Positions 43,811 to 52,333 of a stretch of 64,000 nucleotides of DNA are shown in pieces; position 1 is the stretch's first letter; the number at the start of each line of letters is the position of its first letter. Below the pieces are notes generated by a model. That model saw only the letters and a program-made list of their open reading frames with translations. It was not told the DNA's origin and did not search any database. This DNA is from Pseudomonadota bacterium. Its GTDB lineage: Bacteria > Pseudomonadota > Gammaproteobacteria > Steroidobacterales > Steroidobacteraceae. Made by a program: the position numbers and the translations under genes. Location of the stretch: positions 1-64,000 of the forward strand of contig JAJZDW010000014.1 in the NCBI GenBank assembly GCA_021851405.1, given 5' to 3'.

Positions 43811-46519
43811 ATGAACCCACCGGTGACGCCCGAGCCGCGGCCCGATCCCGAGGAACTGCTCGCGCGCGTGCAGGCCGAAGAGGCGCGCGCCGGGCGCGGC
43901 AAACTGCGGATCTTCTTTGGCGCTTCCGCCGGCGTCGGCAAGACGTACTCGATGCTGCAGGCGGCGCGCTCGGAGCAGGCGGCCGGCACCGACGTGGTCG
44001 TGGGCTACCTCGAGCCGCATGGGCGCATCGAGACTGAGAGGCTGGCCGAGGGACTCGAGCGACTCCCGACGCTCCCGGTCAGCTACCGCGGCATCGTGCG
44101 CCAGGAGTTCGATCTCGATGCGGCGCTCGGGCGTCACCCGCAGATCCTGCTGGTCGATGAGCTGGCGCACTCGAATCTCCTCGGTGGCGTGCCGCAACCA
44201 CGTCATCCGAAGCGCTGGCAGGACATCGAGGAGCTGCTCGCCGCCGGCATCACCGTCTGGACGACGGTCAACGTCCAGCACCTGGAGAGTCTCAATGACC
44301 TGATCTACCAGACCACCGGCGTGCGCCAGGGCGAGACGCTGCCGGATCACGTATTTGACGATGCGGATGCCATCGAACTGATCGATCTGCCGGCCGACGA
44401 TCTGCTCGCGCGGCTGCACGCCGGGAAAGTCTACGTCTCCGATGCCGTCGCGACGGCGGCCGAGCGGTTCTTCCGCCGCACCAATCTGATGGCCCTGCGC
44501 GAGATCGCATTGCGCCGGGTCGCGGAGCGGGTCGAGGCGGCGGCGCGCGAGCTGCAACCGCAGCACGGTCGCGGACGGATTGCCGGTGAGCGCATCCTCG
44601 TCGCCGTCGGCCCCGATGAGCAGGCCGAGCAGCTCGTACGCGCCGGCAAGCGCATGTCCGATGCGCTCGCCGCCGGCTGGAGCGTGGTGTACGTGGAGAC
44701 TCCGGCGCTGCTGCACCTCTCCGATGCGGACCGCAATCGGCGCATCGCGGTGCTGCGCCTGGCGGAGTCGCTGGGCGCAGAGACCGTGACGCTCGACGGA
44801 CCGTCGGCAGCCGCGGCGCTGTTGGAATATGCGCAAACCCGGCGTGCGACCCGGGTGCTGGTCGGGGCGCCGAAGCGCCGCGGCTGGCGGGGCTGGATGC
44901 GCGCGTCGACCTCGAACTTGCTGGTCACCCAGGCGCGCGGCTTCGACGTCATCGTGGTCGCACCGGCCGGTACCGGCGCGGCGCGGCCCGCGCCCTCGGC
45001 GCAGATGGCCGTCGAGGGCTCACCGAGCGGGGTCCCCTGGGACCGGTACGGGTGGGCCGGTGGGATCAGCGTGCTGTGCACCGCGCTGGCGTTCGCCATG
45101 TACCCGAACTTCGAGCTGTCCAATCTCGCCATGGTGTACCTGCTCGGGGTCACCGTGGCGGGGTTGCGCCTGGGGCGCGGCCCCTCGGCGCTCACGACCG
45201 TGCTCAACGTGGTGGCGTTCGACTATTTCTTCGTGCCGCCGCGTTTCACCATAGCGGTGTCCGATGCACAGTACTTCGTGACGTTCGGGGCGATGTTGAC
45301 GATCGGGCTGGTCATCGCCACCCTGACCGCCAACGTGCGCCAGCAGAACCGAGTGGCGGGGGCTCGCGAGCGGCGCACGGCGGCGCTGTATGCGATGAGC
45401 CGGGAGCTGGCGGTCACGCGCGGGATCCACAACATGGCCGCTGTAGCGGTCCGCCACATCGCGGAGGTGTTCGACTGCCGGGCCGTGGTGCTGCTGCCCG
45501 ATGCCGAGGGCAAGCTGCATCGTCCGCGGGAGGTGCCGAATCCGGAATCGCTGCGCGGTGCTGATCTGGCCGTCGCCCAGTGGGTGAACGATCACGGCCT
45601 GCGCGCCGGACTCGGCTCGGACACGCTGCCGGCGAGCCCCGCTCTGTACGTGCCGCTCGGCGATGAGCGGCGTGCGACCGGGGTGCTCGGCGTGCTGCCG
45701 GCCAATGCGCGGCGTGTGCTGCTGCCGGAGCAGAGTCAGCTGCTCGATACATTCGCCGGTCAGATCGGCCTCGCCCTGGAGCGGGCGCGCTTCGCGGACG
45801 CAGCGCAGGCCTCGACGCTCGCGGCGGAGCGCGAGAGTCTGCGCAACACGCTGCTCGCATCGATCTCGCACGACCTGCGCACCCCGCTGTCGGTGATGGT
45901 GGGCGCCGCCAGCACGCTCACCGAGCGCGGCGAGGCGCTCGATGCGCCGAAGCGCCGCCAGCTCGCCGCCTCGATCGAACTGAAGGCGCGCGAGATGTCC
46001 GAGCTGGTCTCGAACGTGCTTGATCTGATGCGCTTTCAGTCCGGCCAAGTGCCGTTGCGGCGCGACTGGCAGAGTGTGGAGGATCTGGCCGGCGCGGCGT
46101 TGCAGCGCCTCGCAGAGCGCATGCGTGATCACCCGGTGGAGCTGAATCTGCCGCCGGAGCTCGTCCCGGTCTACGTCGATGCGAGCCTCGTGGTGCAGGT
46201 CTTCGTCAATCTCTTCGACAACATCGCCAAATACACCCCGCCCGGGACGTCCGCCGCGGTGAGCGCGCTCAACGAGGGCGCGAGCGTACGCGTCATCGTC
46301 GAGGATGAAGGGGCGGGACTCCCGGCGGGCGATCCGCAGCAGCTGTTCGAGAAGTTTCAGCGCGGCAGCGGTGAGGGTGTCATCTCCGGGGCCGGTCTCG
46401 GGCTGGCGATCTGCCGGGCGATCGTGAACGCGCATGGCGGGGAGATTCTCGCGCGCCGCAGAGACGGCGGAGGGGCACGCTTGGAGTTCACACTGCCGGC
46501 GCGGGACGGCGAGCCATGA
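43811..46519 (+). CDS. kdpD: Sensor histidine kinase KdpD
   Basis: A 902-residue kinase. The N-terminal KdpD domain has Walker A GASAGVGKTYSML and DELAHSNLLGG. A Usp-like domain follows (ILVAVGPDEQAEQLVRAGKR), then four membrane helices near residues 415-510 and a GAF-like region. HisKA has phosphorylated His687 in SISHDLRTPLSVMVG. HATPase contains DNIAKYTPPG and EDEGAGLPAG. It senses low K+ or turgor and phosphorylates KdpE. ATG 43811. The stop overlaps kdpE (ATGA). Confidence 0.96.
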   Translation: MNPPVTPEPRPDPEELLARVQAEEARAGRGKLRIFFGASAGVGKTYSMLQAARSEQAAGTDVVVGYLEPHGRIETERLAEGLERLPTLPVSYRGIVRQEFDLDAALGRHPQILLVDELAHSNLLGGVPQPRHPKRWQDIEELLAAGITVWTTVNVQHLESLNDLIYQTTGVRQGETLPDHVFDDADAIELIDLPADDLLARLHAGKVYVSDAVATAAERFFRRTNLMALREIALRRVAERVEAAARELQPQHGRGRIAGERILVAVGPDEQAEQLVRAGKRMSDALAAGWSVVYVETPALLHLSDADRNRRIAVLRLAESLGAETVTLDGPSAAAALLEYAQTRRATRVLVGAPKRRGWRGWMRASTSNLLVTQARGFDVIVVAPAGTGAARPAPSAQMAVEGSPSGVPWDRYGWAGGISVLCTALAFAMYPNFELSNLAMVYLLGVTVAGLRLGRGPSALTTVLNVVAFDYFFVPPRFTIAVSDAQYFVTFGAMLTIGLVIATLTANVRQQNRVAGARERRTAALYAMSRELAVTRGIHNMAAVAVRHIAEVFDCRAVVLLPDAEGKLHRPREVPNPESLRGADLAVAQWVNDHGLRAGLGSDTLPASPALYVPLGDERRATGVLGVLPANARRVLLPEQSQLLDTFAGQIGLALERARFADAAQASTLAAERESLRNTLLASISHDLRTPLSVMVGAASTLTERGEALDAPKRRQLAASIELKAREMSELVSNVLDLMRFQSGQVPLRRDWQSVEDLAGAALQRLAERMRDHPVELNLPPELVPVYVDASLVVQVFVNLFDNIAKYTPPGTSAAVSALNEGASVRVIVEDEGAGLPAGDPQQLFEKFQRGSGEGVISGAGLGLAICRAIVNAHGGEILARRRDGGGARLEFTLPARDGEP

Positions 46520-47223
46520 CCGAGGCGATGCATCAGGTGCTCATCGTCGAGGACGAGCCGGCCATCCGCACCGTCCTCAAGGTGCTGCTCGAGGCCGAGC
46601 ACTATCGCGTCATCGAGGCCGAGAACGCCATGCGCGCGGAAATTGAGAGCCGCAGTCACAAGCCCGATCTGCTGCTGCTCGACCTGGGACTGCCCGATGC
46701 GGACGGAATGGCCATCATCCGTCGGGTGCGCGCCTGGTCCCCGATGCCGATCGTCGTGCTCTCGGCACGCACCCAGGAGGAGCAGAAGATCGCCGCGCTC
46801 GACGCGGGCGCAGACGACTATGTGACCAAGCCGTTCAGCGCCGCGGAACTGCTCGCCCGAGTCCGGGCGGCTCTGCGGCGCAACGTGCGCGGCTCGCAAC
46901 GCACCGGGCCACTCTCCCTCGGCGAGGTCCGCATCGACCTGGAGATGCGCACCGCGAACGGCGCGCACGGGCCGATCCACCTCACCCCGCTCGAATACCG
47001 GGTTCTCGAGGCCCTGGCGCGCAACCTGGGGGCCATCGTGACTCAGCAGCAGCTGATTCGCGAGGTGTGGGGGCCGGAGCGGCTCGGGGATACGCGCGGG
47101 TTGCGCGTGTGCATCATGAATCTGCGCGCCAAGGTCGAGACCGATCCGCGCAAGCCCCGGTACCTGCTCACCGAGGCGGGCCTTGGCTACCGGCTGCTCG
47201 CCGAGGAGAGTGCGTCGGCGTGA
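46516..47223 (+). CDS. kdpE: Response regulator KdpE
   Basis: A 235-residue OmpR-type regulator. The receiver has EDEP at 12-15, phospho-acceptor Asp56 in LLLLDLGLPDADG and the KPF lysine in DDYVTKPFSAAELLAR. The winged-helix effector domain includes HLTPLEYRVLEALARNLGAI and VCIMNLRAKVETDPRKPRYL. It activates the kdp operon when phosphorylated by KdpD. The kdpD-kdpE overlap is 4 bp. It converges with the CheX-like gene 9 bp away. Confidence 0.95.
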   Translation: MTEAMHQVLIVEDEPAIRTVLKVLLEAEHYRVIEAENAMRAEIESRSHKPDLLLLDLGLPDADGMAIIRRVRAWSPMPIVVLSARTQEEQKIAALDAGADDYVTKPFSAAELLARVRAALRRNVRGSQRTGPLSLGEVRIDLEMRTANGAHGPIHLTPLEYRVLEALARNLGAIVTQQQLIREVWGPERLGDTRGLRVCIMNLRAKVETDPRKPRYLLTEAGLGYRLLAEESASA

Positions 47224-47232
47224 ACCCGGCGA

Positions 47233-47679
47233 TCAGGTGAGGGAGACCACCAACTTCGCCGAATGACTGCGCCAGTGGATGGGAATGACGAAGGCGCGCG
47301 CGCCCGCCGGCTGGCTGACCTGCGGCTTCTCCCCAGAGAATACGCTCGGCACGGAAATCACGAAGTCGTGCCCGAAATCGCGCCGCGCATTGCCGGAGAT
47401 GGTGTTGGCGACCTCGCCGACCAGATCGCGCATGCTCTCGTGGCTGAAGTCGCTCTCCTGCATCTTCATCAGCAGCACCGTCAGCATGGCGCGTGGAGCG
47501 GTGAAATACACCACGCCCTCGCGCTTGCCGGAGACGTTGATCATCCCGGTGTAGTCGTGCATCGCCGGCTCACCCTCGAGCATGTACGGCGAGCCGATGC
47601 TCGCCGGCTGCTGCGCGGCCACCTCGAAGTATCGGGTGGTGCCGTCGACGAAGGTTTTCAGTTCCTCTTCCCGCAGCAT
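47233..47679 (-). CDS. CheX-like phosphatase
   Basis: A 148-residue protein with the CheX/CheC-type fold. It carries the catalytic ExxN motif in DLVGEVANTISGNARRDFG (Glu89, Asn92), which in CheX dephosphorylates CheY-P. TGMINVSGKREGVVYFTAPR precedes it, as in CheX proteins. It is the last gene of the four-gene signalling operon, 30 bp after the CheY-like regulator that is its likely substrate. Start ATG 47679. Confidence 0.85.
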   Translation of the reverse strand: MLREEELKTFVDGTTRYFEVAAQQPASIGSPYMLEGEPAMHDYTGMINVSGKREGVVYFTAPRAMLTVLLMKMQESDFSHESMRDLVGEVANTISGNARRDFGHDFVISVPSVFSGEKPQVSQPAGARAFVIPIHWRSHSAKLVVSLT

Positions 47680-47709
47680 GGGCGTGCTCTGTGTGCCGGT
47701 GGGTCCGTA

Positions 47710-48102
47710 TCAGTACATCAATTCGGCGATCGCTTCGTTGAGCTGCCGGTCGGTGAACGGCTTGTTGAGAAAGCCGTTCGCCCCGCGCTCCATGGCCTCG
47801 ACTGCGGTCGCCTTATCCGCCAGGGCCGAGATTACCAGGATCCGCACCTCGGGCTTCATTTGCACCAGCTGCGTGATGCACTCGATACCATCCATCTGCG
47901 GCATGGTCAGGTCCATGGTGACCAGATCCGGATCGGTCCGGCGGGCCAGCTCAAGTGCCTCCAGACCATTGGCCGCGGTACCCACGACCTGCAGATCATC
48001 GAACTGCTGCGAGCGCTCGATGCGCCGGCGAACGATGTTCGAATCATCGACGATCAGCAACTTGACCGTCCGCCGCGCGCCTGTGTCCTGTGCGGTGTCC
48101 AT
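47710..48102 (-). CDS. CheY-like single-domain response regulator
   Basis: A 130-residue receiver domain with no output domain. The acidic pair is Asp19-Asp20 (LLIVDDSNIVRRRIE), the phosphorylated residue is Asp64 in LVTMDLTMPQMDGIE, Ser92 takes the switch position (VISALAD) and Lys114 is in GFLNKPFTD. A 13-residue N-terminal extension precedes the domain. It is 15 bp after the CheA-like kinase gene, whose phosphotransfer domain would phosphorylate it. It signals by protein interaction; the target is unknown. The TonB-fused protein in the same operon has a degenerate receiver and could be a partner. Confidence 0.92.
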   Translation of the reverse strand: MDTAQDTGARRTVKLLIVDDSNIVRRRIERSQQFDDLQVVGTAANGLEALELARRTDPDLVTMDLTMPQMDGIECITQLVQMKPEVRILVISALADKATAVEAMERGANGFLNKPFTDRQLNEAIAELMY

Positions 48103-48117
48103 GGGCGATCTCTATCT

Positions 48118-50226
48118 CTATGCCACTGCGGTCTCGCCGAGCGCGGGCAGCGCGATCTTGAAGCGCGTGTAGCGTCCGGGATTGGTGCTGACGCCGATTC
48201 GCCCGCCGAGGCTGTACACAGCTTTGGCGACGACGTCCATGCCAGCGCCGCGCCCGGCGTCCATCGAGATCTCGTTGCGGGTGGAGAAGCCGGGCTTGAA
48301 GATCAGTGCCAGTGCGGCGCGGTTGTCCAACTGGGCGGCCTGCTCTTCGCTCAGCAGCTTCTTGCGCACGGCCGCTTCCTTCAGCGTCTCCGGTGAGAGG
48401 CCGGCACCGTCATCCTCGAACGTCAGCTCGAAGCCGGACTCGACCCGACGGAAATCCACGCGGACCTGGCCGCCGCCGCTCTTTGCCCCGGCGCGGCGGA
48501 CTTCGTCCGCCTCGATCCCGTGCACCGCGGCATTGCGCAGCATCTGAATGAGGCAGTCCTTGAGCGTACCGAGATAGGCGGGCGGGCATTGCGCCAGGCC
48601 GTTCAGCGCCAGCTTGAAGTCCTTGCCGTGATCCTGCGCGAGCCTATGCGCCAGGGACTGCAAGGTCGAGGCGAGTTCGTCCGGGCCGGCCGTCGGGAGG
48701 CGCGGCGCAGGGGTGTTGAGAGTGCCGTCCGCGGCGCTCGGCTGCTCGCGCAGCGAGGAGAGCTTCAGCGTCATCTCGCGCACACCGCGCAGGTGCGCGA
48801 GCAGCTCATCGAGCTTCAGCACCAGCGGCAGGAAGTCGTTGCCGGTGAGCTCGTTGCGCGCCTTGAGCTCCGCAAGCATGTCCTCGAGGTGATGGACGCG
48901 CTGCGCGATGCTCATCAGGTTCAGCGCTGCCGCCTCACCCTTCATCGTGTGCAGCTCGCGCGACAGGCCGGCGAGCTTCTTGCTGAATTCCGCGTGCGTG
49001 CGCGCCGGCTCCTTCAGGATCGCGTTGATGTGCTTCAGGCCCGCCGAGGCGCTGTCGAGGAACGAGCCGAGCTGCAGCGGGTCCGAGTGCAGCATGCCGA
49101 CCATCATGTCGAGCTGCGAATGAGCATTCTCCTGCGCTTCGTGCAGCTCGCGCGCCAGCAGCACGCTCGAGGTGATGTCCCCGACGGCGCACAGCACGTG
49201 CTTGACACCCTTCGGCCCCATGACGCGGTGGAAGTCGAACTGCAGGTAACGGGTCTCTTTGCCGCCGCGCCCGTTGTCCATGTTGACCTCGAGCTGCCCC
49301 AGCGGGTTGATGCTCTTCATGAGGTTCTCGTGCGCCCGCTCGCCCCAGAGCAGCTTGATGAACTTCATCGCGGTATTGAGCGTCTCGGGCGGCACCTTGT
49401 CGCGCAGCAGCTCCTCGAAGGTCAAGCCGGCGAAGGTGCTGCGACCGAACATGTTCGTCAGGGCCTGCGACCAGACCGCACCGATGCGATAATCGGCATC
49501 GAGGAGGAAAAATCCCTCCCGTACCGTGGCAAGGATGTCGCGAGTCTGATCCTGCGCATCACGCGCGGCACGCTCCCCGCGCCCGCGGGCGACCTGCAAG
49601 TAGGCCGCGGCGAGACCGAGCAGCAGTACGGCGAGTACGCCTCCGGAGAGCAGCCAGCGCAGGCGCGAGGCTGCCGCGGCTGTACGCGCCTGCAGCGAGC
49701 CGCTGACCACGGCGAGCTCACGGTGCAGAGCCGCAGCGTTGGCCTGAGCAAACAGTTCGGCCCGGCGCACGTGGGCATAAAACACCCGGCCGCTGCGCGA
49801 GAGTGAGCTGTTCGTGGCGGTGTCGGAGTAGGGCTCGCCGTGATACGAGAGCACCTTGGCGAGCACCGGGGTGTAGTTGGTCCACAGCGCCGTCGCCGCG
49901 TGCATCGCGGCCGGATCGAGGCCTTTCTGGCGCTCGAGGGCGCTGAAGTCGCGATTGAAGCCGCGCACGCTCGAGTCGAGTTCACCATGGACATGGCCGG
50001 TGTACTCGAGGGTATCGAGTCGCTGGCGCAGGGCGGTCAGCTGCTCGGATATCGCCGACGGATAGGCTTCCAGCTCGCTCGCCTGCTGCAGCGTGGCGAC
50101 GTTGGCGCGAATCTGCGTGGCGAGCCTGAATCCTGCGATCAGCACCAGGCCCATCACCGCGGCGAGCACGATGCCGGCTGCGGCGGTGAGCAGCCGGCGG
50201 TTTCGATCAGCGCCTGACAATAACAT
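48118..50226 (-). CDS. Membrane-bound CheA-like histidine kinase with PAS-like region
   Basis: A 702-residue protein. Membrane helices at about 10-36 and 190-212 flank an extracytoplasmic sensor region. A PAS-like domain lies at about 225-360 (VREGFFLLDADYRIGAVWSQ). Then comes an HPt domain with the phosphorylated His426 in SRELHTMKGEAAALNL, as in the CheA P1 domain. The HATPase domain has the N-box LIQMLRNAAVHGIE (Asn565), FEDDGAGLSP and DAGRGAGMDVV, all CheA-like. There is no HisKA domain, no P2 domain and no CheW-like P5 domain, so it would not couple to a classical receptor array. It is 13 bp after the TonB-fusion gene. Confidence 0.9.
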   Translation of the reverse strand: MLLSGADRNRRLLTAAAGIVLAAVMGLVLIAGFRLATQIRANVATLQQASELEAYPSAISEQLTALRQRLDTLEYTGHVHGELDSSVRGFNRDFSALERQKGLDPAAMHAATALWTNYTPVLAKVLSYHGEPYSDTATNSSLSRSGRVFYAHVRRAELFAQANAAALHRELAVVSGSLQARTAAAASRLRWLLSGGVLAVLLLGLAAAYLQVARGRGERAARDAQDQTRDILATVREGFFLLDADYRIGAVWSQALTNMFGRSTFAGLTFEELLRDKVPPETLNTAMKFIKLLWGERAHENLMKSINPLGQLEVNMDNGRGGKETRYLQFDFHRVMGPKGVKHVLCAVGDITSSVLLARELHEAQENAHSQLDMMVGMLHSDPLQLGSFLDSASAGLKHINAILKEPARTHAEFSKKLAGLSRELHTMKGEAAALNLMSIAQRVHHLEDMLAELKARNELTGNDFLPLVLKLDELLAHLRGVREMTLKLSSLREQPSAADGTLNTPAPRLPTAGPDELASTLQSLAHRLAQDHGKDFKLALNGLAQCPPAYLGTLKDCLIQMLRNAAVHGIEADEVRRAGAKSGGGQVRVDFRRVESGFELTFEDDGAGLSPETLKEAAVRKKLLSEEQAAQLDNRAALALIFKPGFSTRNEISMDAGRGAGMDVVAKAVYSLGGRIGVSTNPGRYTRFKIALPALGETAVA

Positions 50227-50239
50227 GGGGGCTTCCTGA

Positions 50240-52333
50240 TTAATTCGGCAGTTCGAAGCGGATCAGAGTACGCACCGGCACCGAGACCGGTCGCCCATGG
50301 AATGTCGGCGGCGCGTAGCGCCAGCGGCGGATCGCATCGAGCGCCGCGCGGTCGAAGACGGTCGCGGGCTTCGCTGCGACCACCTTGATGTGGCGCGTGC
50401 GCCCGGTGGGATCCACGACGTACTGCACGGTCACTTCCCCGGAAATGTGCCGGGTGAGTGCCCGGTCCGGATAGGACGGGGAGACATAATGCGTGCGGCG
50501 CAACCGCCGAGCGACATCGGCCAGCTGAGCCACCGTTGGCGGTTGCGGCGTGTCGACCATGGCGGTGGCGGCGTTCAGTGCGGCGCCGCTGGCACCCCAC
50601 TGGCGCGCATCGGCGAGGTCGGTGACCGCCGTGGAGCGCTGTCCCGCACGCGCCGCAGCTTCGGCGCGCTGCAGGAGCGCATTGGCGAGCGCACGGTGCA
50701 TCTGGTTCGCGGCCGCCGCGGTGGCCGGATCCGGATGATCTGCCGCCAACGCGTTCAGGTAGTACGCGGCGCTGTCGTGGGCCGGCTGGAGTAGTTCGCC
50801 GGTATCGAGCCGGGCATGGGCTTCGGCGAGCAGCCGCTGCAACCGGTTCTGCACCGCGCTGATGCGGGCCGATTGGATCTGGTGCTGGACGGCGACGATG
50901 GCTGCTGCGGAAGCACCGTTCGCCCGCGCCGCTGCGAGCGCCTGGCTCTCGATCGCACCTTGCCCGGTGAGACCGGCCTGACGCGCTTGGTTCAGCAGCG
51001 CGCCGATCACGGCCTGCGTGGCGTTGGCGGTGCTCGTGGATTGTGGGTCCAGGGTGCGCAGCTTGGCGAGGGTGCTCGCGGCGCTGGCCGCTCCGGTGAG
51101 GCGATGCGCGGCGATCCGCCGGGTGAGCTGATCAACCAACTTCTGCGTACGCTGGTGGTGCGTGAGGTGAGTCAGTTGGCTCTGCCAGGCCGCAATCTGT
51201 GCCGCGGGCACGCCGCGGCGCGCAGCCTGGGCGATGAGGGCCGCTGCGCTGCTGAGCTGACCGCCGGAGAGTGCCTGATTCACCACGGCACTCGATAATT
51301 CAATGCCGAACGGATGAACGTCACGGTTCGTGGGATCCGCCAGCTGCAGCGTCGCGAGCGCCAGCGCGGCGGCGTTGTAATGTCCCTGGCTGAGCGCGTC
51401 TTTGAACCGTGAAATCACGACGTTGCCGACGCGGCGCAGACCGTCTCGTGCCTCGCCATTGGTGGGATCGACGGCCAGCACTGAGCGATAGAACACCAGA
51501 GCGTTGTCGCCTTTCGGTGCCGTGAAGTGCCGAGCAAACATCGCGCGGCTCGCCTTGACGAGCAGATCCTCGACACGGCCCTGCACGATGGAGGTGTCGA
51601 CGTCGGGTCGCGGCAGTGCTGCGAAGTGAGCCGCGTGCGCGGCGGCGGCAATCGGCCGCTGCAGCACCGGATGCGCTGCGACGACGTGGTGTTTCGGCAA
51701 CAGAAACAGTCCGGCCGCGACCGCAGCCACGGCCACTCCGGCGCCGAGCGTCAGCCACAGGCGCTTGCGCCCGTCGCCGGACGGGGGCTCAGTGGACGCC
51801 GCAGCGGATTCGGCCGGCAGCGGCGTGCGCGCCGCCTCTGCGGCCTGATGCACGGAGCGCACCGGGGCGCTGCGTGGCGCGACTTTTTCAGCCGCATCCG
51901 CCAGGGCTGCATCGAGTACGGCAGACGTCTTACCGGGTTCGATCGGCAGTGGCAGCACCGTGAACACCCGGGTGCCTTTCACGGCCGCGGCAACGGACTT
52001 CTCCGCCCCGGCGGTCGTGAACACGAGAATGACGGCATGAGCGTTGTGCGCGCACGCCCGTTCGACATCCGCGCGCACATTCTCGGCCTCGCGTGCGTCG
52101 ATCGCCAGAATCTGACCGCCGCGGGCCCCCTCGAGGTGTTCCAGTGCGACCTCGAGCGAGTCCGCCGGATGCACGCTGGCGCGCCCGCCGAGAACCTCGC
52201 CGAGTTCGAGCAGGAAATCATCGTGATGCGTGAGCGCGGCGAGATCCACCGGTGCGCGCGCTGCGGCGGACGCCGTGCCGCCAGCGGCATCGCCGGCCGA
52301 ATCGCGAGACTCACTCGGAGCTGAATGGGCCAC
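50240..52333 (-). CDS. Receiver-like / membrane / TPR-like / TonB-C fusion protein
   Basis: A 697-residue protein starting at GTG 52333. Residues 35-145 look like a degenerate receiver (ILAIDAREAENV, VILVFTTAG), with a candidate Asp79 but no conserved KP lysine at the LPLPIEP position. One membrane helix lies at 191-212 (LWLTLGAGVAVAAVAAGLFL). The extracytoplasmic region is rich in alanine and helical repeats (about 240-590, TPR-like). The last 95 residues form a TonB C-terminal domain (SYPDRALTRHISGEVTVQYV and VVDPTGRTRHIKVV). No ExbB/ExbD lies nearby. It opens the operon with kinase, CheY and CheX genes. A role in envelope sensing or energised uptake under phosphorelay control is inference. 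Confidence 0.8.
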   Translation of the reverse strand: MAHSAPSESRDSAGDAAGGTASAAARAPVDLAALTHHDDFLLELGEVLGGRASVHPADSLEVALEHLEGARGGQILAIDAREAENVRADVERACAHNAHAVILVFTTAGAEKSVAAAVKGTRVFTVLPLPIEPGKTSAVLDAALADAAEKVAPRSAPVRSVHQAAEAARTPLPAESAAASTEPPSGDGRKRLWLTLGAGVAVAAVAAGLFLLPKHHVVAAHPVLQRPIAAAAHAAHFAALPRPDVDTSIVQGRVEDLLVKASRAMFARHFTAPKGDNALVFYRSVLAVDPTNGEARDGLRRVGNVVISRFKDALSQGHYNAAALALATLQLADPTNRDVHPFGIELSSAVVNQALSGGQLSSAAALIAQAARRGVPAAQIAAWQSQLTHLTHHQRTQKLVDQLTRRIAAHRLTGAASAASTLAKLRTLDPQSTSTANATQAVIGALLNQARQAGLTGQGAIESQALAAARANGASAAAIVAVQHQIQSARISAVQNRLQRLLAEAHARLDTGELLQPAHDSAAYYLNALAADHPDPATAAAANQMHRALANALLQRAEAAARAGQRSTAVTDLADARQWGASGAALNAATAMVDTPQPPTVAQLADVARRLRRTHYVSPSYPDRALTRHISGEVTVQYVVDPTGRTRHIKVVAAKPATVFDRAALDAIRRWRYAPPTFHGRPVSVPVRTLIRFELPN

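Follow-up and report, generated by a model that had tools for sequence, protein, structure and literature searches.

The four-gene operon described here appears to be a conserved, abbreviated version of the chemotaxis pathway. It lies in the window, i.e., the whole stretch of 64,000 nucleotides that was analysed, and encodes a TonB-domain protein, a membrane kinase of the CheA type, a CheY-like receiver and a CheX-like phosphatase (Table 1). Judged from gene order and conserved residues, kinase, CheY and CheX are a real gene unit, and the core of the relay is well supported. The full explanation with its output included, by which the operon is a chemotaxis pathway cut to three proteins and joined by a lineage-specific envelope partner, appears moderately probable.

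Table 1. Genes of the operon and the domains of their products, in window coordinates
Feature	Position	Strand	Extent	Remarks
TonB-domain protein	50240..52333	-	697 aa	receiver-like domain, TM, TPR-like helical repeats, TonB_C
Receiver-fold domain of TonB protein	51881..52252	-	residues 28-151	
Single TM segment of TonB protein	51692..51760	-	~residues 192-214	hydropathy; without SxxxH motif
TPR-like helical hairpins of TonB protein	50552..51592	-	residues 248-594	predicted periplasmic; membrane side deduced
TonB_C domain of TonB protein	50249..50482	-	residues 618-695	
Membrane CheA-type histidine kinase	48118..50226	-	702 aa	
TM1, helical PilJ-like sensor, TM2 of kinase	49597..50193	-	~residues 12-210	model and hydropathy
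PAS-like domain of kinase	49177..49548	-	residues 227-350	secondary structure of model only
HPt domain of kinase	48790..49068	-	residues 387-479	His426 at 48949-48951
CheA P4-type ATPase of kinase	48142..48639	-	residues 530-695	
CheY-like single-domain receiver	47710..48102	-	130 aa	Asp64 at 47911-47913
CheX-like phosphatase	47233..47679	-	148 aa	E89xxN92 at 47404-47415

An ORF check found the four reading frames on the minus strand with gaps of 13, 15 and 30 bp, as the sequence-only reading had stated, and together with Pfam it bore out the absence of a receptor, CheW, CheR and CheB from the operon. A prkA-yeaH-spoVR set lies upstream and is divergent (names by eye from translations). On the downstream side, KdpD-/KdpE-like genes at 43811-47223, also named by eye, converge on the operon, the kdpE-like gene ending 9 bp from the end of cheX. 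Output through the neighbouring kdpDE or prkA-yeaH-spoVR genes was rejected because the module is placed elsewhere in other genera; in L066, L067 and L069 it stands beside a rho-like gene (by eye). Scans around the operon for promoters (a single site, on the opposite strand, against 0.3 expected) and terminators (three matches, 2.3 expected) gave nothing bearing on it.

The kinase profile (E up to 1e-40) matched 69 of the 296 genomes searched in the order. By table reading, 62 of these have the full-length type and 7 a short paralogue only; three of the 62 (G063, G164, G247) are known in part or as two pieces. All 22 sampled genomes of the window's genus carry the kinase. The unit was surveyed in 61 hand-picked loci (63 entered, L034 and L036 dropped as repeats) spanning 23 genus labels and 13 named MAG contigs, and the remaining loci that had been fetched, for the most part the same places with shorter flanks, were excluded. 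CheY and then CheX follow downstream on the same strand for 62/62 kinases, all distinct, in these 61 loci; L045 and L031 were odd by ORF calling, and their CheY/CheX order was settled by tblastn. The search for this gene order in relatives, which had been proposed as a check, thus found kinase-CheY-CheX conserved with the active sites kept. The HPt His is present in 61/62 kinases, the remaining one reading X, and the N-box Asn in 60/62, with two gaps. Among the distinct ORF strings of the fetched loci, CheY keeps its acid pair (DD), D, S and K in 66/66 and CheX keeps its Glu in 65/65 and its Asn in 63/65.

Several copies depart from the common form. The unit is duplicated in tandem at L091:6742-14431, together with a third CheX-like ORF. 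At L093:6539-8706 the kinase is in two ORFs (a true split or an assembly error), and at L017:6001-7710 it has just 569 aa (a deletion or an assembly error); at the same place as L017, G247 gives profile matches in two pieces with the intervening part missing. The short paralogues L101:6869-8506, L102:6793-8349 and L103:3617-6322, which are not included among the 62 kinases, lack CheY, CheX and the HxxKG motif in 3/3 fetched cases. Since these paralogues without CheY are also without HxxKG, transfer from the His to CheY is supported.

At the level of the class, 11 of 369 genomes matched (E up to 1e-40). Two of them, G000 and G024, are members of the window's family, G319 was set aside and 8 remain. 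The kinases of G319 (L094) show HxxKG and CheY-like matches, no CheX and coverage of the ATPase part of the profile only; they are read as ordinary CheA-like on these sequence features. The phylum search (398 genomes, query A2, E up to 1e-80, at most two candidates scored per genome) matched G000 and G380; the 20 of the 396 unmatched genomes among those listed are all of one class, so little is taken from this result.

The AlphaFold model of the kinase (mean pLDDT 80.5) consists of a long helical sensor, a PAS-like strand-helix pattern at about residues 227-350, an HPt bundle and, last, the ATPase, with helices at 462-493 and 515-532. Hydropathy shows two hydrophobic TM stretches in the sensor. 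The HPt domain with His426 and the CheA-type ATPase claimed by the sequence-only reading were both recovered: Pfam gives Hpt (5e-7) and HATPase_c, the ATPase is nearest by sequence to T. maritima CheA P4 (1.1e-22), and fold comparison ranks CheA P3P4 and CheA P4 highest. The C-terminus lies only 7 residues past the HATPase_c match. With E up to 10, Pfam finds neither a CheW domain nor H-kinase_dim in the window kinase; H-kinase_dim is often missed by HMMER according to an excerpt of a survey (PMC10782961). The same Pfam library is able to detect both domains, because the flagellar CheA and the ChpA of the same genome give Hpt, H-kinase_dim, HATPase_c and CheW, the last at 5.3e-26 and 5.7e-18, respectively. 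The claim of a kinase without a CheW-like domain therefore stands against two positive controls.

The PAS-like domain has no Pfam match in the window kinase, nor does Pfam detect a PilJ domain in this kinase itself. Pfam recognises the sensor of distant relatives as a PilJ domain (6.2e-15 in L087), and PF13675 is present in most of 120 rows for kinase relatives, among the matches listed. A profile built from 13 kinases gives a weak match (0.0026) to 6gcv, a chemotaxis transducer of known structure. In the excerpted part of the survey, all CheA proteins have P1, P3, P4 and P5, and CheA is without a sensor domain (PMC10782961). The window kinase has a P1 Hpt with its His and a P4 ATPase, and it is not sensor-free. 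Because it has no CheW domain and carries its own sensor, it is not a CheA by the definition given in that excerpt, yet to judge from its sequence it works like one.

The CheX domain is recognised by Pfam at 4.7e-20 and by solved CheX proteins at 1.8e-9, and the ExxN active site is present. It is the single CheX found in the whole genome (97% complete). Two further chemosensory sets occur in this genome, a flagellar one on contig C53 and a Pil-Chp one on C33. Both encode their own CheY-like proteins, and a CheZ accompanies the flagellar one. As the sole CheX found in a genome whose flagellar set has CheZ, the phosphatase probably serves the CheY of its own operon. A complete chemosensory set elsewhere that uses the operon's CheY had been named as evidence that would count against the relay. 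Two sets do exist, but both have CheY-like proteins of their own; therefore the operon's CheY is not simply the only CheY of those sets.

In the mechanism proposed, a signal would be sensed by the PilJ-like periplasmic helical region of the kinase and/or by its PAS-like domain. Because these regions of its own would take the signal, the kinase would need no separate receptor or CheW. The conserved residues suggest that the CheA-type ATPase would then phosphorylate His426 in the kinase's own HPt. The phosphate would pass from His426 to Asp64 of the adjacent CheY, a step indicated by residue conservation, by the linkage of the genes and by paralogues that lack both CheY and HxxKG, and CheX, to judge from its family and ExxN motif, would then strip it from CheY. 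This series, from autophosphorylation at His426 through CheY to dephosphorylation by CheX, is very probable. The self-contained membrane phosphorelay suggested earlier is thus supported, as far as sequence reaches, by the unit, its residues and the contrast with the paralogues. Finally, CheY-P and/or the kinase may act on the receiver-fold TonB protein and/or on a receiver–Ser/Thr kinase, and a structure of the envelope or of a surface organelle would thereby change its state or position. This last step, in which we infer the output, is the weakest one and is put forward tentatively.

The TonB protein has a sound TonB_C domain, which matches true TonB C-termini. In its receiver, Asp79 is invariant (46/46 and 14/14 aligned sequences). 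The acid-pair position of the window protein reads Thr35/His36 and the Lys position Leu in a weak profile alignment (probability 33%); among 14 diverse receivers of these proteins, Lys-Pro is kept in L053 and L057 only. The receiver fold is present, and the complete phosphorylation site of acid pair, Asp and Lys is not. Because the acid pair has been lost, the protein probably responds through contact with another protein and not through classical phosphorylation.

Linkage of the TonB gene to the module is limited to one family, probably the Steroidobacteraceae, to judge from the label that a source gives to several protein relatives. The gene adjoins the module in 45/46 loci of the window's family, the remaining locus being cut by the contig end, and in 0/15 loci outside it. 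The conserved order of all four genes expected earlier was thus found within the family and failed outside it. With linkage so confined, the adjacent TonB protein cannot serve as the output of the module in general and was rejected as such; since it is missing beside the module in 15/15 loci outside the family, the relay itself can do without it. The suggestion that the TonB-fused protein is the output lost ground on this count and through a receiver without the residues for ordinary phosphorylation. A profile of the TonB protein matches 245/296 genomes of the order (E up to 1e-15), many of the matches covering the TPR-TonB part only; related TonB proteins therefore exist away from the module. 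A more specific version, in which the protein would be a trans-envelope response regulator whose cytoplasmic receiver is docked by CheY-P or the kinase HPt and drives a periplasmic TPR-TonB_C arm via the one TM helix, is speculative and considered unlikely.

The receiver–Ser/Thr kinase is a second candidate output of the relay, suggested by gene position and co-occurrence. It adjoins the operon in 8/61 loci: in L050, L051, L052, L098 and L099 it separates the TonB gene from the kinase gene, in L084 it comes after CheX, and in L064 and L086 it is on the opposite strand, the L086 match being weak (73 bits). Its gene also adjoins the short paralogue in L101, where it is cut by the contig end, and in L102, and by ORF calls is overlapped by the paralogue in L103. 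It was found in 233/296 genomes of the order (E up to 1e-60), with 62/62 among genomes that have the full-length kinase vs. 171/234 among those without it (Fisher 9e-8, relatedness ignored). In the window genome it is on another contig (G000:C26:62616-63902, corresponding to L108:7623-8933), where its neighbour, judged by eye, is an ExeA/GspA-like ATPase gene. This distance from the operon counts against it as an output, and so does its occurrence in the 171 genomes without the full-length kinase. In 4/10 regions fetched around such genes (L113-L116) it has a second receiver–TPR–TonB_C protein beside it. In other families of the order (L111, L112, L117), the gene follows a fimV-truA-accD-folC-(dedD)-cvpA-purF-like row (by eye).

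Other outputs have to be weighed against the preferred explanation. The operon may be a second, receptor-free input of the Pil-Chp kind, with CheY-P acting on pilus motors or on where pili are placed and a TonB3-like role for the TonB protein; this is a doubtful possibility. PilJ-type sensors, by which the distant kinases speak for it, occur outside pilus systems too. The closest solved structure by sequence to the TonB-protein receiver is 4dad, a putative pilus-assembly (CpaE-like) receiver (3.6e-8), but in fold this domain is no closer to it than to ordinary receivers. The genome itself has a TonB_C protein (L110:4206-5075), TonB3-like by position, one gene from a pilG-like gene in the Pil-Chp cluster; Pfam finds neither a receiver nor TPR in it. 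As reported in an excerpt on P. aeruginosa, pili require TonB3, which is grouped with PocAB, and PocAB determines where polar motility organelles are placed (PMC5285504). Against a pilus output, no pilus gene was recognised beside the module in the listed loci, where most neighbours are unannotated.

It is unlikely that the operon's CheY is an auxiliary flagellar CheY with FliM as its target, the kinase being a second input to flagellar switching. The window genome does own a flagellar set, and the module is commoner where FliM is present: FliM was found in 142/296 genomes of the order, in 52/62 with the full-length kinase vs. 90/234 without it (Fisher 8e-11), and within the window's family in 49/56 with the kinase vs. 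18/33 others placed from listings (8e-4), both tests ignoring relatedness. In the excerpted account of V. cholerae, one motility suppressor has a secondary mutation in vc0377, a gene of the CheX family (PMC8789113). However, the flagellar set is already provided with CheY-like proteins and CheZ, and FliM gave no match in 10/62 module genomes, of which 9 are 91-98% complete and which include 4/22 of the window's genus. The flagellar motor is therefore unlikely to be the only output, and a flagellar-only reading is weakened.

Quite improbable is an energy transducer for outer-membrane uptake that would be tuned by the relay. The TonB_C domain resembling true TonB C-termini would suit it, but the SxxxH motif known from the TM segment of E. 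coli TonB occurs in the TM of 0/59 TonB-protein sequences, which makes a classical transducer unlikely; ExbB/ExbD are absent from the operon, and another TonB_C ORF lies beside a MotA_ExbB match on C30. Chance neighbourhood of the four genes or an annotation artefact, with nothing in favour beyond the limits of a draft genome, may be dismissed for practical purposes, being refuted by the 62/62 kinases with CheY and CheX and, for the TonB gene, by the 45/46 loci of the family.

The preferred reading, a three-protein chemotaxis-type relay with an envelope partner, bears on how such relays are controlled. In chemotaxis-type phosphorelays, receptors and CheW are thought necessary for the control of CheA. 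A kinase in which a membrane sensor and CheA-type catalysis are joined, served by a CheY and a CheX of its own, would amount to a minimal and easily rebuilt chemotaxis pathway, and it would show how such catalysis can be uncoupled from receptor arrays. The lineage-specific receiver-fold TonB protein offers a testable route for direct action of a relay on the envelope. If the trans-envelope version were true, the cell wall or outer membrane would come under the direct action of a chemotaxis-type relay, with no transcription factor or motor in between. Among open-licence papers, no description of a kinase-CheY-CheX(-TonB) module was found.

Of the known systems, the CheA-CheY pathways (flagellar and Tfp, and those with CheX/CheC) share with the operon an HPt and CheA-type ATPase, a single-domain CheY and a CheX with ExxN. 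They differ in that the operon kinase lacks a CheW domain, gave no sign of H-kinase_dim or P2, and has a TM sensor of its own with a PAS-like fold, and in that MCP, CheW, CheR and CheB are missing from the operon. The Pil-Chp system of P. aeruginosa with TonB3/PocAB likewise groups a CheA-type kinase, CheY-like proteins and a TonB_C protein, by function or position, and its PilJ-type sensor fold is common to relatives of the operon kinase. In Pil-Chp, however, PilJ is a separate receptor and ChpA carries CheW and a receiver, and the genome's own Chp set is on the separate contig C33. CpaE/TadZ of Tad pili resembles the TonB protein in having a receiver fold with an altered active site and a link to the envelope, whereas the TonB protein lacks the ParA/MinD ATPase domain and has a TM segment, TPR-like repeats and TonB_C. 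Ordinary pairs of histidine kinase and response regulator also combine a TM sensor, a PAS-like domain, a kinase and a receiver in one operon. Unlike them, the kinase described here has its His in an HPt with a CheA-type ATPase and not in HisKA, and a CheX phosphatase is co-encoded.
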